NCBI GenBank assembly: GCA_903834765.1
Contig: CAILKE010000056.1
Span: 1 to 64,000, forward strand
Reading direction: 5' to 3'
Source: an uncultured Bacteroidota bacterium
GTDB lineage: Bacteria; Bacteroidota; Bacteroidia; B-17B0; Aurantibacillaceae
Length of the DNA: 64,000 bases
Shown here: in pieces, positions 24 through 12,505 of the stretch
Numbering within the stretch: position 1 is the first letter of the stretch
Layout of the letters: each line of letters opens with the position of its first letter
Program-made: the position numbers and the translations under genes
Notes under the pieces: model-generated
Told to the model about the DNA's origin: nothing
Databases searched by the model: none
What the model saw: the letters and a program-made list of their open reading frames with translations, nothing else

Positions 24-584
24 ATGGCTATAAATACAAATAAAACAGCTACTGCTTATGAATACTATTGTTTAATTAACTAAGTTCAATATGGGCCTTA
101 TGATTTGGCTATATTAATATCTAAAATTGATAGAGATACGTTAGTATGGAGAGAAGGCATTGATTGGATAAAAGCATCAGATATACCTGAACTCAAAAAG
201 TTTTTTCCTGAGCCTATAGTAAAAGTAGTTGAAAAAGAAGTAAGACATTCAACAAATTATCAATCAGTAAATGCTAAAAATGTTCCCAATAAAATGTTTT
301 CATCTGCTTTTTCTTTCGATGGAAGAATCAGAAGAACAGAATATGGCTTAAGTTTTATTATTTATATTTTTGCTTATGGAATAATAATAGGACTAATTCA
401 AGCAGCTAGCGTTTTTGGATTAGCATTTATACCATTAATTTGGTTTTTATGGGCACAAGGTGCTAAAAGATGTCATGATAGAGGAAACTCTGGATGGTAT
501 CAAATTATTCCGTTTTATGTATTTTGGATGATTTTTGCTGAAGGAGAAAAGGATACAAATGAATATGGAAACTCTCCTAAATAA
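24..584 (+). pseudogene. GYF_2-DUF805 membrane protein interrupted by an in-frame TAA
   Basis: Reading from the ATG at 24 gives MAINTNKTATAYEYYCLIN, then a TAA at 81-83, then VQYGPYDL and onward in the same frame to the stop at 582-584. The GYF_2 (DUF4339) signature continues straight across the stop (YYCLIN, VQYGPYDL, DTLVWREG), so the stop lies inside the domain and not between genes. A charged linker follows, then a DUF805 domain (about 300-580) with several hydrophobic segments and the AKRCHDRGNSGW motif near its end. The only restart is a TTG at 105, which would lose half of the GYF_2 fold. It is the first visible gene of the Ter operon, 37 bases before a TerD gene. The cause could be a real nonsense mutation or a base-calling error. 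The function of DUF805 proteins is unknown; a membrane role is inferred. Confidence 0.75.
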
Positions 585-621: not shown

Positions 622-1182
622 ATGATAAGTTTAGAAAAAAAGAAACCAATTAATTTAAATAAAACAGTTCCGAGTCTAAACCATGTAAAAGTGGGTTTAA
701 GTTGGGACCAAACAAATTTAAATGGCCAATCACCAGATGCAGATGCCTCCATTTTTATGTTAGGAGAAAATGGAAAACTTCCATCAGAAGATTTTTTTGT
801 ATTTTACAATAATTTAATTAGTGGTGATGGTTCTATTAAACATTCAGGCGATAATAGGACTGGAGCAGGAGATGGTGATGATGAAGAAATTAACATTTCA
901 CTTGGACAGATAAGTTCTCAGGTTGTTCAAATTATGCTAACTATAACAATTAATAATACCGATGATGGATTTAATTTTGGAAATGTAAAAAACTCAAGTG
1001 TTAGGGTATATAATTCTTCAAATAATAGTGTTATTTGTGAATATAAATTAACAGAAAACTTCGATGGTTGTGATTCGCTAATTATTGGTAGATTCTATCG
1101 TAATGGCTCAGAATGGGAATTTGAAGCAATAGGTCAAGCTTTTTCTGGCGGCTTAGGAGCAACAGTAGAACTTTATCAATAA
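622..1182 (+). CDS. TerD family stress protein (first copy)
   Basis: A cytosolic protein of 186 residues in the TerD/TerE/CABP family, which binds calcium and takes part in Ter stress responses. The N-terminus has two LxLxK strands (ISLEK, INLNK), followed by VKVGLSWD, the acidic SPDADASIFML segment and the SGDNRTGAGDGDDEEI motif, which matches the family's acidic calcium-binding signature. It ends with the usual FSGGLGATVELY. The ATG at 622 was chosen because it places the TerD N-terminal strand at the protein start; an in-frame ATG at 535 lies inside the preceding gene and would add 29 unrelated residues. The acidic motif is closer to the family consensus than that of the second TerD copy downstream. 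Family assignment is firm; the exact stress sensed is unknown. Confidence 0.9.
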   Translation: MISLEKKKPINLNKTVPSLNHVKVGLSWDQTNLNGQSPDADASIFMLGENGKLPSEDFFVFYNNLISGDGSIKHSGDNRTGAGDGDDEEINISLGQISSQVVQIMLTITINNTDDGFNFGNVKNSSVRVYNSSNNSVICEYKLTENFDGCDSLIIGRFYRNGSEWEFEAIGQAFSGGLGATVELYQ

Positions 1183-1362: not shown

Positions 1363-1995
1363 ATGGCATTAAATTTAAACAAAGGAGGCAGATTCAATCT
1401 AGCCAAAGAGGCACCAAAATTAAAAGTAGCAGGAATAGGTTTAGGATGGAATCCAAACGAAGAAGAAAATGGACCGGATTTCGATTTAGATGTAAGCGCT
1501 TTTCTTATCGGAACAGATGGCAAAATTCCAGCTGATGAGTATGTAGTTTTTTACGGATCAGAATTAAAAATGGATACGACTGAAGGTAAGAGACCATATT
1601 CTGGAGATGGAGCTGTTATAGGTGCTGTTGATGCAATTGATGGAACAGAAAGCGATGGAGAAGATGATGAAGATATGAAAATTTATTTTGATAAAATATG
1701 GGAAGGCGTTCAGCAAATTGTAATAACAGTTACTATTACAAAATATCCTAACGATAAAAAGAAAGACAAAAGGACACTGCTTCAAAATTTTGGAATGGTT
1801 GAAGATTGTTATATTAGATTATGGGATGATGAAACAGGAGTTGAAATATTAAAATATGACTTAAAAGAAAAATTCAATAGCGAAGATGCAGTTGAATTCG
1901 GAAGATTTGTTAGAGTAAATAACTCCTGGGAATTTATTGCTACTGGAGAAAAATATACTGGTGGCCTTAATAAATTCATTGAATTATTCACTTAA
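1363..1995 (+). CDS. TerD family stress protein (second copy)
   Basis: A TerD-family protein of 210 residues. It opens MALNLNKGGRFNLAKEAPKL, with two LNL/FNL-x-K strands, then GIGLGWNP, the acidic PDFDLDVSAFLIG segment and an enlarged acidic loop (DAIDGTESDGEDDEDMKI) where calcium ligands normally sit. The C-terminus GRFVRVNNSWEFIATGEKYTG and GLNKFIELF is typical. The loop is longer and more acidic than in the first copy, so the two paralogues may differ in metal affinity (inference). The start is supported by the conserved N-terminal strand. It is 13 bases upstream of the OmpA-domain protein, whose N-terminus repeats the same MALNLNK sequence. Confidence 0.92.
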   Translation: MALNLNKGGRFNLAKEAPKLKVAGIGLGWNPNEEENGPDFDLDVSAFLIGTDGKIPADEYVVFYGSELKMDTTEGKRPYSGDGAVIGAVDAIDGTESDGEDDEDMKIYFDKIWEGVQQIVITVTITKYPNDKKKDKRTLLQNFGMVEDCYIRLWDDETGVEILKYDLKEKFNSEDAVEFGRFVRVNNSWEFIATGEKYTGGLNKFIELFT

Positions 1996-2008: not shown

Positions 2009-2923
2009 ATGGCATTAAATTTAAACAAAGATGGCAATGAAAATAACAGCTCATTACCAAAACAAGAAAAAAAAAGCCTTAATCTTAACAAAGAAGAAAA
2101 TAAGTCCGCAAGTAAATTAAATCTTTCAAAAGATTCTATTGAGTCTGAAAAAAATAATTCTATCCCAGAAAAAAAGAATCTTAACCTTAGTAAAGATCAA
2201 AATAAGTCAGTTAGTAAATTTAATCTTTCTAAAGATCCAATTGAGCATGCAAAAGATACTATAGCTGCAGAAAAAAAGGAAAGTAATATAAGCACTTCAA
2301 AAGTTATAGAAGATCAACCCAAGAAAAAATCAAAAACACTGATGTATTCTTTATTAGGTCTTGTTATAATAGCTTTAGCAGTTTTATTTATAAGTAATAA
2401 TAAAAAACCATCTGAAGGACCTCAAAATGGAGAAATACCCGTTGCTGAAGCGCCAACAACTTCACCTGCAGTTATAGAAACACCAACAGTTGTAACTCCA
2501 GTTACAGAGAATCCAGCAGTTGAAAATACAGTTACTGAAACTTCAGCAGCTGCAAATACAGTTGCTGAAACTCCAATAGTTGAAACTTTAGTTGCGGAAA
2601 ATAGCATTGAACAATTTGCTTCTGGAACATCAGTTGTTAATTCACCTAATAATCAGCAAGTAAAATCTATTAAAGATTATTTAGAAAAAAATGCAAGTAA
2701 TAAAATTATTTTAATAGGTTACGCAAGTAGTGAAGGAGAAATTAACTTTAATAAATTACTTTCAGAAAAACGAGCACAGTCAATGAAAGATTATTTAACT
2801 TCAAACGGAATTGACGGTACAAGAATTTCATCACAAGGTGGTGGAATAGAAAACCCAGTAGGAGATAACAATACTGAAGAAGGTAGAACGAAAAATCGAA
2901 GAGTTGAGGTAATGTTTAAATAA
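2009..2923 (+). CDS. inner-membrane anchored OmpA-domain protein with TerD-like LNLxK repeats
   Basis: A 304-residue protein in four parts. Residues 1-110 are a charged, probably cytosolic region with five copies of an (L/F)NL(N/S)K motif at residues 3, 24, 37, 58 and 71. Residues 111-130 are one transmembrane helix preceded by KKKSKT, which predicts an N-in, C-out topology. Residues 140-205 are a P/T/V/E-rich linker. Residues 206-304 are an OmpA-type peptidoglycan-binding domain (LSEKRAQSMKDYL, RTKNRRVEV). The usual OmpA aspartate region reads YASSEGEINFN, so one ligand may be altered, while the conserved arginine is kept. The start at 2009 is used because MALNLNK matches the TerD start; in-frame upstream codons lie inside terD. 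The protein could link cytosolic TerD to the cell wall (inference). The domain calls are firm. Confidence 0.85.
   Translation: MALNLNKDGNENNSSLPKQEKKSLNLNKEENKSASKLNLSKDSIESEKNNSIPEKKNLNLSKDQNKSVSKFNLSKDPIEHAKDTIAAEKKESNISTSKVIEDQPKKKSKTLMYSLLGLVIIALAVLFISNNKKPSEGPQNGEIPVAEAPTTSPAVIETPTVVTPVTENPAVENTVTETSAAANTVAETPIVETLVAENSIEQFASGTSVVNSPNNQQVKSIKDYLEKNASNKIILIGYASSEGEINFNKLLSEKRAQSMKDYLTSNGIDGTRISSQGGGIENPVGDNNTEEGRTKNRRVEVMFK
2078..2281 (+). repeat. 102-base in-frame tandem duplication encoding LNLxK motif pairs
   Basis: Two adjacent 102-base units (2078-2179 and 2180-2281) encode 34-residue repeats. They begin LNLNKEENKSASKLNLSKD and LNLSKDQNKSVSKFNLSKD. Each unit carries two LNLxK motifs spaced 13 residues apart, and the units give an alternating 21/13 spacing together with the N-terminal motif. 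The duplication has diverged at the DNA level, so it is not recent. Confidence 0.8.
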
Positions 2924-2930
2924 AAGATTA

Positions 2931-3605
2931 TTGAAAGATTTATTTTTATATAACGCTAACATATCTCATTTGTCATTTGACTTTTGGGATACATTAGCGT
3001 TTTCTAACCCTGAATTTAAATTTGAACGATCTAAACTTATTTCAAAATATTGTTCTCAATCTCATTTCGATATTGATCAATGCATTAAAAATGTTGGAAA
3101 AAAATATAATTCGCTACAAGAATCTTCAAATGTTTTTATTTCACCAATTGATTTATTGCAGCAAGCAATAAATGAAATTATAAAAAAACCTGTAATTTAT
3201 ATTGAACCGCTTTATGAAGAAATATGTAAATTATTTGAAAAACATAAGCCATTATTAAATTATACTTGTGAAGATTTTATAAATAAATGTATAATCAACA
3301 AGAAAAAAATTTCTATTCTTAGTAATACAGCATTTATTCCAGGTAGTCTTATTAAAGATTATTTGGTTTCAGTATTTGGAGCTAATTCATTTAGCTTCTA
3401 TTTATTTTCTGATGAAACGAAATTTGCCAAGCCGAATATTAAAGCATTTGATTTATGTTATCAAAAAATAAATTTGGCGCATAACAAAACAATTTCTAAA
3501 ACTTCAATAGTTCATATTGGAGATAATTATATAAATGATTTTGACGCTGCAAAAAAATTTGGATTTCAATCTCATTTAATTTTAAAAGATGGAGTTGAAA
3601 TATAA
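2931..3605 (+). CDS. HAD superfamily hydrolase of the Ter cluster
   Basis: A 224-residue haloacid-dehalogenase-fold phosphatase. Motif I is DFWDT at residues 17-21 (nucleophile Asp17, general acid Asp20), motif II is the SILSNTAF strand, motif III is the lysine in TKFAKPN, and motif IV is HIGDNYINDFDAA near the C-terminus. The only start near the N-terminus is a TTG at 2931, 7 bases after the previous stop. Its end overlaps the next gene by 17 bases. HAD and phosphoribosyltransferase pairs are known from the Ter-associated biosynthetic modules described for stress-response loci; the natural substrate is not known. Fold assignment is firm, cluster role is inferred. Confidence 0.85.
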   Translation: MKDLFLYNANISHLSFDFWDTLAFSNPEFKFERSKLISKYCSQSHFDIDQCIKNVGKKYNSLQESSNVFISPIDLLQQAINEIIKKPVIYIEPLYEEICKLFEKHKPLLNYTCEDFINKCIINKKKISILSNTAFIPGSLIKDYLVSVFGANSFSFYLFSDETKFAKPNIKAFDLCYQKINLAHNKTISKTSIVHIGDNYINDFDAAKKFGFQSHLILKDGVEI

Positions 3606-4419
3606 TAGCCATTTTGTCCATAGCTTTACTGAAATAGATGTTCCTTTTAATATGGAATCATTTAGCGAATTTAAGTATGGTAATATAGATATTGCAAAAG
3701 AAATGGCGTTTGAACTTGTTAAATTATTTAAAGTCAGAATTTTAGATAAACATTTCAATAAACGCTTTATTATTTATAGTTCTCCATATAGTAAAATTCC
3801 AACCTCAAGTCTATTTTTAAGTCAGTATTTTATTGAAATATTACAAAGTGATTATCCAGATATAGATTTTAATTTAGAAAAAATTGAAAGAAATAATACT
3901 TACTCACAAGATTATGGATTAATGACCGCAGAACAACGATTTCAATTAATATCAAAAGACACATACTCTATAAATAATTTACCAGATAAAGAAGCTATTT
4001 TAATTTTCATTGATGATGTTTCAATTACTGGAACTCATCAAAGAGTAATAGAAAATTTAATTTTCGAAAATTCAATTGAAAATGACCTTGTATTTTTATA
4101 TTATGCTAAATTAATAAACAATTCTGATCCCAAATTTGAAAGTACCTTAAATAATTTTAAAATTAAAAAATGGGAAGATTTAGTTAAATTAATTCTTACT
4201 CCTTCCTTTAAATTTAATACTCGCGCAATTAAATATATCTTATCATTAAGTAAAGAAGAATTTTATTTAATGATAAATGTTTTGAAAAAAAATAAGCCTT
4301 TACTAATAAATATTATATTCTTATTAGCTGAATCTAATAATTATAACACTATCGAAGCCTATAAAGATAATATGGGTGCATTAACAAAAATATTAAAACA
4401 ATTAAATTCTTATGTATAA
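3589..4419 (+). CDS. phosphoribosyltransferase-like protein of the Ter cluster
   Basis: A 276-residue cytosolic protein. Its clearest motif is ILIFIDDVSITGTHQ at about residues 137-151, the PRPP-binding loop of type I phosphoribosyltransferases (two acidic residues followed by a TGT turn). The N-terminal half (FIIYSSPYSKIPTSS) resembles the first strand and flexible loop of the fold. The C-terminal 100 residues are helical and unassigned. It overlaps the HAD gene by 17 bases, and its stop overlaps the ATG of the lipoprotein gene (ATGTATAA), so translation is probably coupled. With the HAD enzyme it may make or process a nucleotide-like product, as proposed for Ter loci. The substrate cannot be read from the sequence. 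Confidence 0.75.
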   Translation: MELKYNSHFVHSFTEIDVPFNMESFSEFKYGNIDIAKEMAFELVKLFKVRILDKHFNKRFIIYSSPYSKIPTSSLFLSQYFIEILQSDYPDIDFNLEKIERNNTYSQDYGLMTAEQRFQLISKDTYSINNLPDKEAILIFIDDVSITGTHQRVIENLIFENSIENDLVFLYYAKLINNSDPKFESTLNNFKIKKWEDLVKLILTPSFKFNTRAIKYILSLSKEEFYLMINVLKKNKPLLINIIFLLAESNNYNTIEAYKDNMGALTKILKQLNSYV

Positions 4420-5945
4420 ATCATTATATTGTTTAATAGGTTTTTTTTTTGTTACAATCTTGCAATGATAACATTATTAAAAAAAACAAGATTGAATCCA
4501 ATGATTCAGATTATACTCAAATTAATAAAGGCGAAGATCAAATTGAACTTGAAGATACGTTTTCATTTAGTTCAAATGTTAAATCTAAAATTGATTTTGG
4601 TCGGCAATTAATTAAATTAAGTCATCACATAAATACTTCTGCAAACGAATATCTACCTGCATTATCATCAGATGAAAATTTAATCTATTTTTCGGCAATG
4701 GATAGAACAGGTTTTTTTGATTTTAAATTAGATTTCACTAAGCAAAAGTCATCAGGTGGCGAAGATATTTTTATTTCTGAATTTAAAGATGGTATTTGGA
4801 TGGATGCACGTCCAATTAATAATTTGAATACAAATGGTCATGAGGTAGTTAACCAAGTTCTAAATAATAATGATTTACTAATTACTGCAAATTACTCTGA
4901 AAAACTAGGCCCAAAGCCTTCTAGTAATGGAACTGAAACAACAGATTTATTTTTGGCAAAAAAAAATAAAACAAAACAGTTTCAAATTGTACATTTTCCT
5001 GAGCCTGTTAATTCAATTTTTGATGAAGCTGACGGATTAATGGCAGAAGATGAATCTTATATTTTATTTGTTTCCGATAGGCCTGGGCATAAAGGTGAAT
5101 ATCATAAAAAAGGATGGAAATGGAATTCTAGTTTTTGGGGTAATACTGATGTATATGTAAGCATTAAAGAAGGTGATTTTTGGTCTGTACCAATAAATTT
5201 AGGGGATCTTGTAAACACAGGTGGGGCAGAGAGATCACCATGGCTTTCTAAGGATGAACTAACTTTATTTGTTAGTTCTAACGGACATGAAGGTAAGCGG
5301 AATGATTTGAATATATATGCATTTAAACGTGTCGATAAAAATAATTGGACCGAATGGGAAGGGCCATATTCTATTTCTGATGCAAACTCAAATTATGATG
5401 ATTGGGGTTATAAAGAAACTAAAATTGGTAATGCCTATTTTGCCAGAGTAACGCCACTAGGATTTAAACCTACACAAGGTGGCTCAGCAGGTGATGGGGG
5501 GATTCGTGAAACAAATTATAGAACTGGATACGAAATTCTTGGTCAACAAGTAGCTTCTTTAAATGCTGAAAACACCACTGATATTTATTTTTTAAAACAA
5601 TCAAATGAACCAATTTTTGCTTTACCTGATGTGTTTTTTGATATAAATTCGGCTTCACTTAAATCTAAGATGTTAAAAGTACTTGATAGATTATTAGATT
5701 TAATAAAACAAAATAAAAATTACAAAATAGAAATAAAAGGATTTACTGATGATGTTGGTAAAGATGATTATAATTTAAATTTATCCCAAAAACGTTCTGA
5801 AGCAGTCAAAGAATATCTAATAAAAAACAATATTTCAAATTTAGTTACTGCAAAAGGTTACGGCGAAAACAATCCAAAATATGATAATACTGATGTTGGT
5901 AAAAAAGCAAAAAACAGACGAGTAGAAATTTATTTTAATAAATAA
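4412..5945 (+). pseudogene. PD40-OmpA lipoprotein, frameshifted in a T10 tract within its signal peptide
   Basis: From 4449 the frame encodes LQSCNDN, then a WD40-like PD40/TolB propeller (about 4640-5480; motifs such as LSSDENLIYFSAMD and LFVSDRPGHKGE), then an OmpA peptidoglycan-binding domain (about 5620-5940; GFTDDVGKDDYN, LSQKRSEAVKEYL, AKNRRVEIYF). The natural start is the ATG at 4412, which overlaps the previous stop. As written, that frame hits TGA at 4466 because 4441-4450 is a run of ten T. With nine T it would read MYKSLYCLIGFFLLQSC, a textbook lipoprotein signal with its lipobox Cys. So the gene is either phase-variable, decayed or affected by a homopolymer error. A TTG at 4449 could restart, but it leaves no signal peptide. 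The expected location is the periplasmic face of the outer membrane. Confidence 0.8.
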
Positions 5946-6227: not shown

Positions 6228-7007
6228 ATGGAAGAATTAATTCAACAAATCATTGACAATCCTGGGCCATCATTAGCAATAATTGGAAATCTTATCATAA
6301 TCGAAAGTTTACTTTCTGTTGATAATGCAGCTGTTTTAGCAACCATGGTGATGGACTTACCAGAAAAACAAAGAAATAAAGCGCTTAAGTATGGCATATG
6401 GGGTGCATATATTTTTAGAGGATTGGCAATGGTTTTCGCTGCATATCTAATTCAAATTTGGTGGCTTAAACCTTTAGGTGGACTTTATCTGCTATATCTA
6501 GTTTATGACTTTTGGAAAGGGAAACAAACTGAAGAAAAAGATGATGACGTTCTTGATAAAAATAGTAATTGGCTTTATCGTTCTACAGTTGGTGCATTAG
6601 GTAATTTTTGGGCCACGGTAGCACTTGTAGAGCTTATGGACATGGCTTTTTCGATAGATAATGTTTTTGCTGCTGTTGCATTTACCCCTAATATTATTTT
6701 GGTTTGTATTGGAGTGTTTATAGGAATTTTAGCAATGCGGTTTATTGCTCAATGGTTTGTTAAATTAATGGGTAAATATTCATTTCTTGAAACCGCTGCA
6801 TTTATTGTAATTGCTATACTAGGCATCAAACTTTTACTTTCGTTATATGAGCATTTTTATCCTGATGCTATATTAAGTAAATTTTTAAGTAGTCATATTG
6901 CTGATATAGGAATTTCAATTTTAACTGTAGCAATATTCTTTATACCAATAATATCTAGTTTGATATTTAATTTTCCGAAAAAATTGATATCTGAAAACGA
7001 AGAATAA
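6228..7007 (+). CDS. TerC family integral membrane protein
   Basis: A 259-residue polytopic inner-membrane protein with about seven hydrophobic helices. The TerC signatures are present: ESLLSVDNAAVLA near residue 26 and ELMDMAFSIDNVFA near residue 135, each with the paired acidic residues (E..VDN, E.MD..FSIDN) thought to handle a metal ion. Length fits the shorter TerC/YkoY-type members. It is the last gene of the operon and is followed by about 500 bases without genes. TerC is the membrane partner of TerD in tellurite and metal-stress systems; recent work on homologues supports manganese export, so a role in metal homeostasis or in loading secreted proteins with metal is possible here. Confidence 0.93.
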   Translation: MEELIQQIIDNPGPSLAIIGNLIIIESLLSVDNAAVLATMVMDLPEKQRNKALKYGIWGAYIFRGLAMVFAAYLIQIWWLKPLGGLYLLYLVYDFWKGKQTEEKDDDVLDKNSNWLYRSTVGALGNFWATVALVELMDMAFSIDNVFAAVAFTPNIILVCIGVFIGILAMRFIAQWFVKLMGKYSFLETAAFIVIAILGIKLLLSLYEHFYPDAILSKFLSSHIADIGISILTVAIFFIPIISSLIFNFPKKLISENEE

Positions 7008-7505: not shown

Positions 7506-7895
7506 TTAAAAATTTAACACGTCAGATAAAGCGCCATCCACATCTTTATGAATAAAATTGGATTGGTAACCAATGGTTGTTTTTAAATCGGAGTGGCGAT
7601 ATAGTTTTTGCAATAACTGTGGTGCTATTTTATCGCCTGCTATTTGACCAAAACTGTGACGAGAAATATGCATTGTCATTTTCTTATCAATCTTTAAAAC
7701 AGCAGCTAATTTATTCAGCTGTTTGTTGATTAGAGAATTAAATACTTCTAGGTTTATTCTTTTGCCAATTTTCCAGTACAAAATAGAAAGTGTAGTATTT
7801 ACGGTATGAGCTATATACTTTTTGCTTTCCTCAATTAATAATGCTACGTCAGTAAAAAGCAATTGCTCGGTATCTATTTTTTTGAGTTTACCCAT
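7506..7895 (-). pseudogene. chimeric remnant: DUF1016 nuclease N-terminus joined to a tyrosine recombinase C-terminus
   Basis: A 129-residue frame made of two unrelated pieces. Residues 1 to about 49 (IEESKKYIAHTVNTTLSILY, WKIGKRI) match the N-terminal domain of DUF1016/YhcG-type PDDEXK proteins, which stop here just after the IGKRI motif. From about residue 50 the sequence is the C-terminal catalytic part of a tyrosine recombinase (MHISRHSFGQIAGDKI, LQKLYRHSDLKTTIGYQ), carrying the HxxRH and the GY tyrosine. The junction is near base 7750. The fused piece lacks the first catalytic Arg and the core-binding domain, so it cannot be an active recombinase on its own. It looks like scar tissue from an earlier insertion or deletion. 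Partial genes are the simplest reading. Confidence 0.7.
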
Positions 7896-7960
7896 TTTTC
7901 ATTTATTACTATTTCAGATTTATTATAAATCATTAAATATAAAGTGTATAAAAGCAAAAG

Positions 7961-8001
7961 ACACGCCCTGGGACGCTGTACTTATGGGTAGCGTGGCGTG
8001 T
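7961..8001. repeat. imperfect inverted repeat with an asymmetric bulge
   Basis: ACACGCC (7961-7967) and ACGCT (7973-7977) are mirrored by AGCGT (7990-7994) and GGCGTGT (7995-8001). The left arm has five unpaired bases between its two blocks and the right arm has none. It is much more GC-rich than its surroundings. It lies between the integrase remnant and the ATPase gene. It has the look of a folded single-strand recombination site or of an element end; no U-tract is present. Confidence 0.5.
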
Positions 8002-8075
8002 ACTGTTGATGTAAATGTAAGATTTTTATTAATTATACTATTCATTTAACGCAATTATTTTTTACTTGAAAATTT

Positions 8076-8125
8076 ACGAATGCAGAGTGCAAACCCTTAT
8101 ATATGGGTCTGCACTTTGCACTCGT
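8076..8125. repeat. long imperfect hairpin downstream of the AAA ATPase gene
   Basis: Arms 8076-8096 and 8105-8125 pair at 18 of 21 positions around an eight-base AT loop. The blocks are ACGA, TGCA, AGTGCA and ACCC on the left, with their complements on the right, separated by three single mismatches. The arm sequence shares GAGTGCAAA with a repeat inside the ATPase gene. It may act as a transcription terminator, an origin structure or a recombination site. Confidence 0.6.
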
Positions 8126-8206
8126 GGTTAATTTTAGTTTAAACATTTGATTTTAAAGGATTTAAGTAGTAAACGATTTCTTTGTTTTCTGCACGAGTGC
8201 AAAGTG
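8112..8206. repeat. 15-base inverted repeat pair (iteron-like)
   Basis: CACTTTGCACTCGTG (8112-8126) is repeated exactly, in inverted orientation, as CACGAGTGCAAAGTG at 8192-8206. The second copy lies inside the last codons of the ATPase gene and encodes part of HTLCTRAE. A related GAGTGCAAA occurs at 8085-8093. Repeats of this kind next to a RepA-like gene suggest replication-initiator binding sites (inference). Confidence 0.55.
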
Positions 8207-9305
8207 TGTGATTTACCTCATTTTGCTCGATGACAATAGCGGTATCTGTAATTTGTTTTAAGCGAGTTATGACAGTTCGCTTACTACAATCTAACTCATC
8301 GGTTAAAAGTTCAATTAGCTCCTTGCGTGGCATTTCTGAGAGTAAAATTTGAGCCAGTAAGTCTAAAGTTTCAGAAAGTGCCGCTTTATGGTTTTTCTTA
8401 TCTAAAATGGTTTGAGTTGTATTTGGATCGGACATTACCAACCCTTTTTCGGTATCGGAATATTGAACGTAAAAAGGGTCGTGTTTTTTTGAACTCCGGC
8501 ATTTTAGATAAGCCACTTTTAATAAATTGGTATTATGGTTTTGCGCATCTTTCTCAAAACCAATTTGAATAACGGTACTGGCTTTGTTTAATATTTCAGT
8601 TCCTAAATGTCCGCGAGCTTTATCCGCACTTCCCGGGTTTTCATGTATCAAGCATAAAAAGGTTACATCGTACCGATTGATTGTTTGATTCATCATATCT
8701 ATTAATTTCATACTATCCTTGGTATCATTGAAATTAAAGATGCAATCCGTTATGACATCCAAAATAATAAAGATGTGTATCGGGAATTTTTTACGCGCAT
8801 GTTCTAAATAAATATTAAGCATATCAAAGCGATCTTCTCTGCCAAATTCTAATAATGAAATATAATCGAAACCGTAAGGCTCTTCGTTTATTTCATAACC
8901 TGCTTTTAGCTGTATTTGTTGCAAGGAGTATGGTAATTGCTCCGATAAATTTCGTTCGGTATCTACATAACAAATAGCATAGCGTATGAGTAAATTCGTT
9001 TTAAAACCTAATAAATCTTTATGACAATCTGGCTTCTTTAATAAAGATGCACAAATGGTTTCAGCAAGGCGTGACTTGTGCACGCCTGCTTTGCCTTGTA
9101 TGACATTGATGGTTTTAGGAAAGAAAACCGGGTTTTCTTTTTGCCAAACGATGGGCTGAGAAAATGAAATCGGTTTGCATTTATTCTCAGCTATTTTGCG
9201 CTGTGATGCCAATAACTGCTCCAATTTATTTTTTGCGTTTTCAAGACTCGGCAAAGCCGAGTTTGAAACGTTGTTATGATTTTGAGGTATTGGAATATCG
9301 AACAT
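8139..9305 (-). CDS. AAA family (RecA-like, AAA_25/RepA type) ATPase of a mobile element
   Basis: A 388-residue cytosolic ATPase. The Walker A motif is GKAGVHKS at residues 71-78, with His where Gly usually precedes the Lys. The Walker B strand is FIILDVITDCIF, and a later LIHENPGSADKARGHLG segment corresponds to the RecA-like sensor loop with its GTEI motif. The C-terminal quarter looks like a winged-helix DNA-binding region (ELLTDELDCSKRTVITRLKQ). Proteins of this type encode RepA-like helicases in Bacteroidota integrative and mobilizable elements. It is the last gene of a minus-strand set starting at the integrase, and iteron-like repeats sit at its 3' end. The family call is good; a direct role in replication is inferred. 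Confidence 0.75.
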   Translation of the reverse strand: MFDIPIPQNHNNVSNSALPSLENAKNKLEQLLASQRKIAENKCKPISFSQPIVWQKENPVFFPKTINVIQGKAGVHKSRLAETICASLLKKPDCHKDLLGFKTNLLIRYAICYVDTERNLSEQLPYSLQQIQLKAGYEINEEPYGFDYISLLEFGREDRFDMLNIYLEHARKKFPIHIFIILDVITDCIFNFNDTKDSMKLIDMMNQTINRYDVTFLCLIHENPGSADKARGHLGTEILNKASTVIQIGFEKDAQNHNTNLLKVAYLKCRSSKKHDPFYVQYSDTEKGLVMSDPNTTQTILDKKNHKAALSETLDLLAQILLSEMPRKELIELLTDELDCSKRTVITRLKQITDTAIVIEQNEVNHTLCTRAENKEIVYYLNPLKSNV

Positions 9306-9340
9306 AATTTATTTTGTTTTTTAATTATCTATGAATACTG

Positions 9341-9365
9341 TCGGGGTGGCCAGATTCGAACTGGC
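9341..9365 (-). other. tRNA-Pro-like 3' end fragment (possible attachment site)
   Basis: On the minus strand, a five-pair T-arm with loop TTCGAAT (GCCAG, loop, CTGGC; 9349-9365) is followed by CACCCCG and a discriminator A (9341-9348). That is the 3' quarter of a tRNA, and CACCCCGA fits tRNA-Pro of Bacteroidota. No anticodon arm, D arm or 5' acceptor strand (CGGGGTG in the right place) is nearby, so it is not a functional tRNA. Tyrosine recombinases commonly use tRNA 3' ends, which leaves such copies in elements. It lies between two element genes rather than at an edge. Confidence 0.6.
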
Positions 9366-9384
9366 ACCCTTAAAATTTGTATTA

Positions 9385-9768
9385 TTAATAATAAGATAAT
9401 GCCATGAAATAGACTTTGATTTGACCATTCTCGAAACGAACAGTAGCTACCCAATCTTTGGGTGTTTTGTCTTGTATATTCGTTTCTTGTCTGATACAAC
9501 TTTCAATACTCATGATCATCATTTTGTAATTCTGCTCTTCCAATCGTACAAACAGCTCAGAGAAATAAGCGTACCGCAATTTATCGAGCTGTAGCTTTTC
9601 AAAAAGCTTGTTTAATTGGTTCTTATCGGCATTGTTATCATTAAATAATTTCATGTAATAGTTTACATTACTTTCTAATGTTTTTTCATCTCTGCCAATA
9701 ATTGAGGCAACTTGTTGCATCAATTCCGGCCAAGTAAGGTCGTGTAGAGTTTCTTTATAAGTATTCAT
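9385..9768 (-). CDS. hypothetical protein of the mobile element
   Basis: A 127-residue protein with no recognised family. It is helical and charged in its first 100 residues (for example KNQLNKLFEKLQLDKLRYAY), with a short beta-like C-terminus (WVATVRFENGQIKVYFMAL). It has no signal peptide or membrane segment. It lies between the HTH gene and the ATPase gene on the same strand, so it is probably co-transcribed and involved in element maintenance. Confidence 0.6.
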   Translation of the reverse strand: MNTYKETLHDLTWPELMQQVASIIGRDEKTLESNVNYYMKLFNDNNADKNQLNKLFEKLQLDKLRYAYFSELFVRLEEQNYKMMIMSIESCIRQETNIQDKTPKDWVATVRFENGQIKVYFMALSYY

Positions 9769-9864
9769 TTTTATAATAAGGGATAAAGGTGTTCGCTTGC
9801 TACAGATTTAAAAACATAATGAAGTAGCAAGCTCGGTTCACTATATTTTTCCATTTGGAACAGT

Positions 9865-10143
9865 TTATTTTTTAAAAGCCTTTATGTAATGTTTTTGCAT
9901 CAGTTCTTCTACATCCGATAGCTTGTAGTAAATTTTGTTACCAACTTGAGAGAAGGAAATTTTGCCTTCATCGCGCCAGGTTTGCGCTGTGCGTTTGGAA
10001 ATTTTCATTAATAGTAAAAACTCTTGATTGTCGAGATAAGTGTCCGATGGTTTTTTGCTATCGGTAATTACTCTTTGCTTGATTTCCTCAATTGAGGTTG
10101 CTAAGTTGTTGAATTGGTCTTTCGATAAGATGATTGCTTCCAT
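9865..10143 (-). CDS. helix-turn-helix excisionase-like protein
   Basis: A 92-residue DNA-binding protein. The C-terminal half contains a MerR/excisionase-type winged helix-turn-helix (LLLMKISKRTAQTWRDEGKI, then FSQVGNKIYYKLSDVEELM), as in the HTH_17 family. The first 40 residues form a polar helix (MEAIILSKDQFNNLATSIEE). The ATG at 10143 is preferred over an in-frame ATG at 10173, which would add a basic ten-residue extension; both are possible. Such genes follow integrases in Bacteroidota elements and act as recombination directionality factors or regulators. The specific role is inferred. Confidence 0.75.
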   Translation of the reverse strand: MEAIILSKDQFNNLATSIEEIKQRVITDSKKPSDTYLDNQEFLLLMKISKRTAQTWRDEGKISFSQVGNKIYYKLSDVEELMQKHYIKAFKK

Positions 10144-10207
10144 TTTCTTTTTGGTTTTAAGATTATGGAGCAAAAGTGCGCAGAGTGGAAAAGTCTATTG
10201 GTCTCTG

Positions 10208-10551
10208 TAGGACCACTTTAGGACTTTTTACTTTGGTATGTTTCTGATATTCAGATTGATTCTTTTTTCTACAGAGGGACGTTTTTCAGGACGCGAAGTA
10301 TTTAGAATTGTTTTAACCGTATTTAAACTTAACGCCTTTCCGTTTTTATCAATAAAATTATCTGTTATAAATTGTGCTAACTCATTAAAACCTGCATTTA
10401 GTAAAGGTTTACCGTCAACTGTTATTTCTTTCGTTAGCTGAAAAAATACATCAACAAATACATTTGTTTGGCAATTAAATTGAAAAAGTCCTACGGTAGT
10501 CCTATAGAAATCTGTAGGACTTTTTGTGTTTTTTGTAGGACTTTTAGGACT
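10208..10551. repeat. cluster of TAGGACT/AGTCCTA heptamers
   Basis: Seven copies of TAGGAC-type sequence lie in about 340 bases: two direct copies at 10208-10213 and 10219-10225, just past the stop of the 312-residue gene, and five at 10487-10493, 10498-10504 (inverted), 10515-10521, 10536-10542 and 10545-10551 inside it. The internal group encodes a repeated KSPT stretch, so protein repetition could explain part of it, but the copies beyond the stop cannot be explained that way. Confidence 0.45.
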
Positions 10552-11166
10552 ATTAACTACTTGATTATTAGCAGTGTTTTGTTTTTTATTTAATTTTTGT
10601 TGTGATTTGATTAGGTCTAATTCTAAATTTATTTTTTCATCAAAAGGAATTTCATTTACATCAATTATTTTAGGTTTGTTTTGTAAATATTCTGTCTTGG
10701 CTTCCATTAAACAGGAAACTTTTTCTTCATAACCATATCCTTTGATTTCGGATTTTAATTTAACGAAGTTAAATTTAGAATCCGGTGCTTGTTTCTTTTG
10801 TTCAATGACATCGCGCAAAACTTCAATGATAATTAGTGCTTTATCAAACTTGGTAATATGTTCTTTTGAATTAAATAGTCCTCGATTTAAGTCAATTAAC
10901 TTTTCGAGTTTATTAAGCCAAACGATGGGCTCTTCCATCTTATCGCATTGATACTGGATGAACGGTTTTATTTTAGATTTAGAGATAGTAAAAATTTTGT
11001 GTAACAAACATTTACAATATAACTCCTTATTAAATTTACCACCATTTAGAAAATTAGAAGGTTGCCCTGCTTCAAATACAACAATATCATACTCCCCTTT
11101 ATCAAATTGGGCTATATCAACAATAGGATGCTCGACAAAAGGTGAACAAATAACAAAGGTGTACAT
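10228..11166 (-). CDS. mobile-element protein with RteC-like C-terminal motif
   Basis: A 312-residue protein without signal peptide or membrane helices. The N-terminal 150 residues are unassigned. A polar linker rich in K, N, S and T (about residues 190-220) precedes a C-terminal domain with FNELAQFITDNF and LSLNTVKTILNTSRPEKRP, a pattern seen in Bacteroidota element proteins of the RteC type and their relatives. It lies immediately downstream of the integrase gene on the same strand. A regulatory or mobilization role is likely; the function is not established from sequence. Confidence 0.6.
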   Translation of the reverse strand: MYTFVICSPFVEHPIVDIAQFDKGEYDIVVFEAGQPSNFLNGGKFNKELYCKCLLHKIFTISKSKIKPFIQYQCDKMEEPIVWLNKLEKLIDLNRGLFNSKEHITKFDKALIIIEVLRDVIEQKKQAPDSKFNFVKLKSEIKGYGYEEKVSCLMEAKTEYLQNKPKIIDVNEIPFDEKINLELDLIKSQQKLNKKQNTANNQVVNSPKSPTKNTKSPTDFYRTTVGLFQFNCQTNVFVDVFFQLTKEITVDGKPLLNAGFNELAQFITDNFIDKNGKALSLNTVKTILNTSRPEKRPSVEKRINLNIRNIPK

Positions 11167-11293
11167 ATCAATAAATTTAATAATTCGTTAAACGAATTTA
11201 AAAGAAATTGAGTGTATAAAAAAGTGAATGTTTATAAATATAGCATTAAATTGCTACAAAATATAGCAATATTGTTAATAAAATATTTTGTAA

Positions 11294-12505
11294 TTAATCA
11301 TTAAAAACATCCATTGCATTATCAAGCTCCTCGTTTACGATTTTAGCGTAAATCTGAGTTGTTTTTATATTTGAATGTCCCATTAATTTTGAAACATATT
11401 CTATTCTCATTCCTTTTTTTAAGGCTCTTGTTGCAAAAGTATGGCGTGAAGTATGAAAATGTATATTTTTCTCGATTTTAGCTAAATCCGCTATGTTTTT
11501 AAGCTCTTTATTGCACATTGTGGCACAAGACCCAACAGCACGGTATAAAATCCGTCCATCTGAATAATCTTTATCGTTTTCGAGAAATGGAAAAATAAAA
11601 TCATTTTGTTTTATTTCTCTATTGCGGTATAAATTAATAATATCAATAGCCTTTTTCGGTAATTTAATAGAGATGGTACTTTTTGTTTTTTGAGTTTCCA
11701 TCAAAACTCTTTCTCCATTAAAATTTGACCATTTTAATTGTGTTATATCTGAAATTCTCATACCTCCGACATAAGTAGCAAAAATATATATGTTTCGAGT
11801 ATTATACATCCAGGGCTCACTTTCTATTTCAAGAGCTTCAACTTTTGCAAGTTCTTCCTCTGTTAAGAATTCTTTTTTGGGCGCATCCCATTTGAATTTA
11901 AACTTTGTAAAAGGGTTTTTTTCATAAGTGATAATTTCGTCTTTGATTGCTTCATTAAATATTCTTCTTAAAATTTTATAGTTTGCAAATACTGTATTAC
12001 TCACATTATTTAATTCTGAGCGCATATACGTTTCATACTTTTTGAGCCATTGTAAATCAATATCATTGATCATTACATCCTTTTCCTTTGTGTATTTTTT
12101 CATTTTAGAAATCACACCTCTCATTTTATCTACAGTTGAAGGCTGTATTTTAGTTTCCATTAAATCTAAATAATCTTCAGCGTATTTAAAAAAGCTTGTT
12201 GGTGCTTCACCAATAATGGCGGATTTAATATTTTTAGGAGTTATAGTTTTAGATGTTGCTTCCATTTCTAAAGCAACACCTTCAGCTTCTGCAATTTTAT
12301 GAGATATGAAATTATTAATGCGTTGTGAATTTTCCATGCCTTTTTTGACACGTTTATTCTCAGCATCCCAATATTTCTCAGGAACTGCAATTCCTAAAGA
12401 AATTAGTTTAGAACTTCTGAATTTTATTATTCTTAAATACAGTGGTATTTCACCTTTTTTATTAATTTTATCCTTGCGAAAAAGTAGTTTAACGGAAGCC
12501 GACAT
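11294..12505 (-). CDS. tyrosine recombinase/integrase of the mobile element
   Basis: A 403-residue phage-integrase-family protein, full length for the Bacteroidota conjugative/mobilizable-element type. It has an N-terminal arm-binding domain (MSASVKLLFRKDKINKKGEI), a SAM-like core-binding domain (about residues 105-205) and a catalytic domain. Catalytic residues are visible: Arg in GGMRISDITQLKW (near 248), the HTSRHTF box (near 350), GHSNIKTTQIY with the nucleophilic Tyr (near 384). It is intact, in contrast to the recombinase remnant at 7506-7895. It sits at the right end of the element and reads inward, the usual arrangement next to an attachment site. Confidence 0.93.
   Translation of the reverse strand: MSASVKLLFRKDKINKKGEIPLYLRIIKFRSSKLISLGIAVPEKYWDAENKRVKKGMENSQRINNFISHKIAEAEGVALEMEATSKTITPKNIKSAIIGEAPTSFFKYAEDYLDLMETKIQPSTVDKMRGVISKMKKYTKEKDVMINDIDLQWLKKYETYMRSELNNVSNTVFANYKILRRIFNEAIKDEIITYEKNPFTKFKFKWDAPKKEFLTEEELAKVEALEIESEPWMYNTRNIYIFATYVGGMRISDITQLKWSNFNGERVLMETQKTKSTISIKLPKKAIDIINLYRNREIKQNDFIFPFLENDKDYSDGRILYRAVGSCATMCNKELKNIADLAKIEKNIHFHTSRHTFATRALKKGMRIEYVSKLMGHSNIKTTQIYAKIVNEELDNAMDVFND

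Follow-up and report, generated by a model that had tools for sequence, protein, structure and literature searches.

A short N-terminal motif of TerD proteins recurs on an OmpA-domain envelope anchor and on GYF_2 membrane proteins in Bacteroidota operons

The nearest described context for the operon analysed here is that of the FtsZl1 (FtsZ-like 1) operons, in which a gene of the tubulin superfamily is clustered with genes for OmpA-domain and membrane proteins, and for which a role in membrane remodelling was proposed by the authors (Makarova and Koonin, 2010; PMC2875224). A vWA-domain protein is encoded in the majority of these operons and an OmpA-domain protein in several genomes (PMC2875224). 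The operon described below likewise combines a tubulin-like gene with a gene for an OmpA-domain protein, but its Tubulin_2 match falls under the Pfam cut-off. No vWA match was obtained among the operon genes scanned with Pfam in three loci (L009, L178 and L219), the operon genes put through Pfam included none recognised as a kinase, and TerD occurs 0 times in the text of PMC2875224. The Ter clusters (tellurium resistance/stress) provide a second comparison. Two proteins of the Pfam TerD family, TerC and nearby HAD and PRTase genes are common to both, whereas our operon differs by its peptidoglycan anchor and GYF_2 membrane proteins, which bear the TerD N-terminal motif, and by a tubulin-like gene upstream. 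The anchor resembles the single-transmembrane (TM) OmpA proteins of the MotB/ZorB type in its N-in TM helix and periplasmic OmpA domain (with a weak ZorB match in PADLOC, 7.7e-11), but differs from them by a long cytosolic tail of TerD-like tags, and no MotA/ZorA-like channel gene was found among the neighbouring genes listed or scanned. With a C-terminal OmpA domain behind the TM segment, it also fits the OmpA-like peptidoglycan anchors. In the TerD structures 2kxt, 3ibz, 2qz7 and 9a6r_B, the N-terminal arm is part of the TerD chain, whereas here it is also found alone, repeated, and on other proteins.

TerD, TerC and OmpA proteins are of known kinds. In the open-access literature we found no description of a TerD-arm tag on a wall anchor and on GYF_2 proteins, although an earlier mention is possible, and none of TerD combined with an envelope operon of tubulin-like, OmpA and TerC proteins.

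The window, by which we mean the whole stretch of 64,000 nucleotides analysed, comes from an uncultured Bacteroidota bacterium and carries the TerD/anchor operon at its beginning (Table 1). From N- to C-terminus, the anchor consists of a cytosolic tail, a single TM segment, a linker and the OmpA domain. The earlier note had described five copies of the motif (L/F)NL(N/S)K ahead of this TM segment, a 34-residue tandem duplication behind them, and two TerD proteins of the same operon opening with the same kind of sequence. All three descriptions hold, as judged from the translation, Pfam, hydropathy and alignment of the two repeat units. The copies, spaced 21/13/21/13 residues apart, read MALNLNK...SLNLNK...KLNLSK...NLNLSK...KFNLSK and all precede the sole TM segment. 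The anchor has no Pfam TerD match; it shares the arm motif only, without the full TerD beta-sandwich. Composition shuffles of the tail gave 0.0082 expected copies against 5 observed, and 0 of 20,000 shuffles reached five. We reject a chance or low-complexity origin of the repeats on the grounds of these shuffles together with conservation in 28 other loci.

Table 1. Features of the TerD/anchor operon and its neighbours in the window.
Feature	Position	Strand	Details
GYF_2-DUF805 membrane protein gene, start MAINTNK	24..584	+	Pfam DUF805 2e-13, GYF_2 3.6e-6
Short TerD, 186 aa, N-terminal arm MISLEKKKPINLNK (I-type)	622..1182	+	Pfam TerD PF02342 1.3e-58
Long TerD, 210 aa, arm MALNLNKGGRFNLAK (L-type)	1363..1995	+	Pfam TerD PF02342 9e-45; PDB relatives 2kxt, 3ibz
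OmpA-domain envelope anchor P0001, 304 aa	2009..2923	+	Pfam OmpA 4.8e-16; alignment A1
Tag copy 1, LNLNK, residues 3-7	2015..2029	+	
34-codon repeat unit A, residues 21-54	2069..2170	+	75/102 nt identical to unit B
Tag copy 2, LNLNK, residues 24-28	2078..2092	+	
Tag copy 3, LNLSK, residues 37-41	2117..2131	+	
34-codon repeat unit B, residues 55-88	2171..2272	+	Tandem duplicate of unit A
Tag copy 4, LNLSK, residues 58-62	2180..2194	+	
Tag copy 5, FNLSK, residues 71-75	2219..2233	+	
Predicted TM helix, residues ~110-128, after PKKKSK	2336..2392	+	Hydropathy scan, mean 2.62
OmpA peptidoglycan-binding-type domain, residues 203-297	2615..2899	+	Pfam PF00691 4.8e-16
HAD-like hydrolase gene, adjoining the TerD/anchor core	2931..3605	+	Weak Pfam HAD matches, 2.3e-4
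PRTase_3 (ComF-like phosphoribosyltransferase) gene	3589..4419	+	Pfam 1.1e-38
TerC membrane protein	6228..7007	+	Pfam PF03741 2.2e-50

Relatives of the operon were retrieved through similarity to the long TerD protein, without consulting the tail, and come from Pedobacter-type, Chitinophaga-type and other Bacteroidota; a single further anchor locus, L056, was added when the Pfam TerD family was surveyed. No relative of the anchor was found in the 86 other genomes of the window's own taxonomic family, so the operon is patchily distributed. We found no viral relatives of the long TerD, and searches for plasmid or phage relatives of the anchor returned OmpA-domain matches only, none spanning most of the query. 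The gene order, short TerD (185-189 aa), long TerD (210-218 aa) and OmpA anchor, is the same in all loci except L010, and the gap between long TerD and anchor is 10-17 nt in all operons but L006 (165 nt). In the exceptional locus, from Pedobacter duraquae, a deletion has left a fusion in which the tubulin-like gene supplies the start and the long TerD the C-terminal portion (L010:9839-10390); the short TerD and the intervening genes are missing, and the anchor is intact with both of its tags.

All 28 anchors outside the window carry the tag, and none of their tails was found to lack the motif beside a retained TerD. Each has one to four copies, which amount to 57 against 0.06 expected from shuffles, counted with a motif pattern that was broadened after inspection to allow D/E/T/Q/H. 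Most anchors have two copies, two Chitinophaga anchors have one (L008 and L154), L005 has three and L056 four. The first copy in L056 lies at residue 20 rather than at the gene start. A translation-start or mRNA signal can be discarded on account of this displaced copy and of the internal copies in general. The leucine and lysine of the first and last tail motifs are unchanged in 26 loci, across which the pairwise codon differences at these four positions (92, 25, 168 and 69, or 354 together) are all synonymous, with 0 nonsynonymous. Because these residues stay fixed while their codons differ synonymously, we read their invariance as purifying selection acting on the protein. The invariant residues of alignment A1, which predates the inclusion of the D/E variants of the motif, are M1, N4, L5 and K7 of the tail plus three in the OmpA part. 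In TerD, alignment A2 gives L6, K8, L14 and K16 as invariant, which are the same residues as in the tail.

These data bear on a reading in which the repeats serve no particular function: a disordered tail, AT-rich and K/N-rich, would have grown by replication slippage, and gene starts would have been homogenised by recombination between neighbours. The low complexity of the tail, the tandem duplication that gave its two units and the identity of the first 22 nt (the first seven codons) of the long TerD and anchor genes would all fit such a history. It is nevertheless very improbable in our judgement, given the excess of copies in the 28 other loci, the invariance of L and K despite codon differences and the position of the first copy in L056, away from the start; moreover, the internal tail copies of the window anchor are encoded by codons unlike those of the gene start.

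The tail also follows the adjacent long TerD in the identity of its motif. Residue 1 of the motif is the same in the tail and in the neighbouring long TerD in 28 of 28 operons (F/F in 25, L/L in three), whereas that of the short TerD is I in all 28 operons tested and never equals the tail. Since the operons are related, this match represents about one F/L change and not 28 independent events. A stronger test of covariation was provided by the divergent operon L219, which was reached only through its 1289-aa protein (30% identical). Its anchor (OmpA 6e-17) starts with MSDNVTLKRK and its TerD-like protein with MSEITLKRK, and the probability of sharing a pentamer of the TLKRK kind at random is about 2e-5 by simulation; the covariation as a whole comprises the one F/L change and this one switch to TLKRK. 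The TerD affinity of the L219 protein is suggested by its match to PHROG 5698 (3.9e-4, compared with 1.5e-27 for the long TerD), to which tblastn adds a weak hit on a protein annotated as TerD (7e-4). Pfam gave no TerD match for the L219 protein, and hhalign against the TerD alignment was not significant. Together, the presence of the motif in all 28 anchors, the tracking of the long TerD by residue 1 and the joint switch to TLKRK bear out the likeness between tail and TerD N-terminus that the earlier note had claimed, and they support a functional tie between the two. That part of its interpretation stands; the proposal that the tail supplies or substitutes for the N-terminal strand of TerD fared less well, as the structure models suggest.

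The models were built for L009, where the long TerD and the anchor are in frame and separated by no more than a stop and five codons, for which reason a read-through chain was chosen: the stop was read as glycine, and TerD plus tail were folded by AlphaFold2 as one chain. The alignment (A2) had 33 rows, seven of them containing the tail, with a linker of 5-6 residues after TerD. In the resulting model, TerD's own arm occupies strands 4-6 and 11-13 (block pLDDT 79-84) and tail residues 221-261 are disordered (pLDDT < 50). When the TerD arm was omitted (alignment A3, 61 rows), TerD was again confident and the tail undocked, with residues 208-227 and 231-239 below pLDDT 50 and no strand. Foldseek assigned the long TerD model to the TerD fold, with matches to 2kxt, 3ibz, 2qz7 and 9a6r_B (SCP2 model) at E-values of 3.9e-19 to 4.6e-08. 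In the AlphaFold2 model the arm belongs to the TerD fold, and folding alone could explain its conservation within TerD.

Strand exchange, in which tail copies would donate or replace the N-terminal beta strand of TerD and one anchor would hold several TerD molecules, has some appeal: the tag has the same sequence as the TerD arm and varies along with it, the arm is a predicted beta strand in the AlphaFold2 model, and the LxLxK alternation resembles an edge strand. Yet neither of the two one-chain read-through models, with their seven tail rows, showed strand addition, and the tail was disordered whether the TerD arm was present or omitted. This is a weak test, made with single chains, seven tail rows and no oligomers, and it argues weakly against simple strand donation; with few tail rows and TerD as the only partner, it is likewise weak evidence against binding in general. 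On balance we consider strand exchange improbable.

The motif is not confined to TerD proteins and anchors. The GYF_2-DUF805 membrane proteins of L004 and L005 start with MAISLTK (L004:8812) and MAIEINK (L005:8846) and both genes are intact, a GYF_2-TM protein in L004 starts with MALNINK, and contig C38 of the window's own genome ends in a GYF_2-TM-TPR gene with the start MALNLDK. The start of the first gene of the window is a degenerate form of the same tag; this gene, beside the contig end, contains one in-frame TAA (81-83) within its GYF_2 domain, either a nonsense mutation or a contig-edge sequencing error. A search of the own genome (3.6 Mb) for gene starts of the form MA[LIFM][NS][LIFM][NSDG]K returned three, those of the long TerD, the anchor and the GYF_2-TM-TPR protein, and the reversed control returned 0. 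From the gene order in L004 we infer that C38 joins C56 directly, in which case all three starts would belong to this operon. In the intact tagged proteins the GYF_2 domain begins at residue 14, which makes the tag an extra 13 residues ahead of it. A GYF_2 protein unlinked to the operon in the same genome begins directly with the domain and is untagged, and the tag is likewise absent from all 19 GYF_2 proteins used as controls. Nor did we find convincing tags on other proteins of anchor-less TerD clusters.

Because these GYF_2 membrane proteins carry it, the motif appears to be a shared N-terminal tag, which widens its scope beyond mimicry of TerD. It also seems to come in flavours: the GYF_2-DUF805 proteins have I, like the adjoining short TerD, and the GYF_2-TPR and L004 GYF_2-TM proteins have L. 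Drawn from five proteins only, this apparent split is a lead. We raise, as a tentative and rather doubtful extension, that the TerD arm is a lineage-specific address label, in which an L/F-type (long TerD, anchor, GYF_2-TPR or similar) and an I-type (short TerD, GYF_2-DUF805) direct membrane partners to one or the other TerD paralogue. With the tubulin-like and actin-like NTPases, these would form a machine tethered to peptidoglycan, and the number of tag copies would set its capacity.

Upstream of the TerD genes, 27 of the 29 anchor loci have in common a tubulin-like protein, a protein of 1250-1300 aa and one of 395-495 aa, and many add a small TM protein and a lipoprotein-like protein of ~510 aa. 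Neither PADLOC nor NCBIfam put a name to these upstream genes. In the window's own genome they are found on a separate contig from the window (L178, G000:C38:1-10610), which holds the upstream portion of an operon of this kind: lipoprotein-like, small TM, tubulin-like, 1301-aa actin/Hsp70-like and 495-aa proline-rich-tailed proteins, followed by the tagged GYF_2-TM-TPR protein. The tubulin-like protein contains a GGTG motif (in the sequence GSIFGGTGASS) and has both Tubulin_2 and Tubulin matches, under the Pfam cut-offs (Tubulin_2 PF13809, 23.6 bits and E 3.6e-5 in the own genome and 26.6 bits in L219, with the cut-off at 27). The 1250-1300-aa protein has no Pfam match and contains IDFGS(N/T)N, which on our own reading may be an actin/Hsp70-like signature. 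The 395-495-aa family (for example L178:1220-2707 and L004:7270-8730) has proline-rich C-terminal repeats in nearly every TerD-type operon; they end in PPLPPKK (most loci) or PPPPKKK. Three copies of LSDE(E/N)LF take the place of these repeats at the C-terminus of the protein in the divergent L219. The C-terminal repeats are another short repeated motif of the operon, and its GYF_2 domains may be their readers. GYF_2 proteins were rejected as an explanation of these tails, which occur across the TerD-type operons even where GYF_2 genes are absent, and the link between the two is only loose.

The upstream genes supply the main rival to our preferred reading, namely that the tag is a ligand of another operon component (the tubulin-like, ~1300-aa or 440-495-aa protein) and that TerD, anchor and GYF_2 proteins are its clients. 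Candidate receptor genes are present in those 27 loci and on contig C38 of the own genome; the 1289-aa protein occurs in three of 395 genomes of the phylum, each time with a TerD or TerD-like protein and an anchor; and a common receptor would accommodate both the tag's presence on several unrelated domain types and the lack of TerD-tail contact in the AlphaFold2 models. We nevertheless hold it to be unlikely, if worth keeping in view, as TerD proteins outside this operon type retain the same N-terminal motif, which is therefore not specific to these components, and the tail matches the long TerD and not the short one.

Our preferred reading is that the repeats are extra copies of an N-terminal assembly tag, Mx[LIF]xLxK, common to proteins of the TerD/tubulin-like operon, by which cytosolic machinery is gathered at the envelope; we think this somewhat likely. 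The tag appears portable, probably serves envelope assembly, and is either derived from the TerD arm or convergent on it. The anchor presumably resides in the inner membrane and, as is known of its family, on peptidoglycan through its OmpA domain. By the positive-inside rule its tail would lie on the cytosolic side, with the OmpA domain fixing the protein to peptidoglycan, so that a disordered tail may display one to five tags. These tags would bring the cytosolic machinery of the operon to the envelope, with the long TerD as the most likely cargo, and there the tagged membrane proteins may join TerD in one envelope-bound assembly; the five copies in the window anchor would raise valency. Tag binding, TerD recruitment and valency are what we infer here, and the single-copy Chitinophaga anchors imply that multivalency is not required.

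The role of TerD proteins is a long-standing question. A motif common to TerD, a wall anchor and membrane proteins, and varying in step with TerD, points to TerD action at the cytosolic face of the envelope, and the tag supplies short peptides for testing TerD function. The operon context, with tubulin-like, actin/Hsp70-like, OmpA and TerC proteins, suggests that Bacteroidota have an envelope machine of several parts.

Some further observations concern TerD proteins elsewhere and the genes downstream of the anchor. Some TerD paralogues of L061, L063, L064, L171 and L050 have three successive arm motifs (e.g. MAINLSKVTLEKQGDSHKIDLTK), so that duplication of the arm has also occurred within TerD proteins. 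TerC lies downstream of the anchor in eight loci (the window and seven other operons). Just downstream in the window, positions 4449-5945 encode a second OmpA-domain protein (OmpA 1.1e-19), with PD40 repeats and without the tag. Downstream of TerC, positions 7506-12505 hold an apparent mobile element, recognised from translations only, which is bounded by two tyrosine-recombinase-like proteins, one a C-terminal fragment of 129 aa and the other full-length at 403 aa, with plasmid/ICE-like genes between them.
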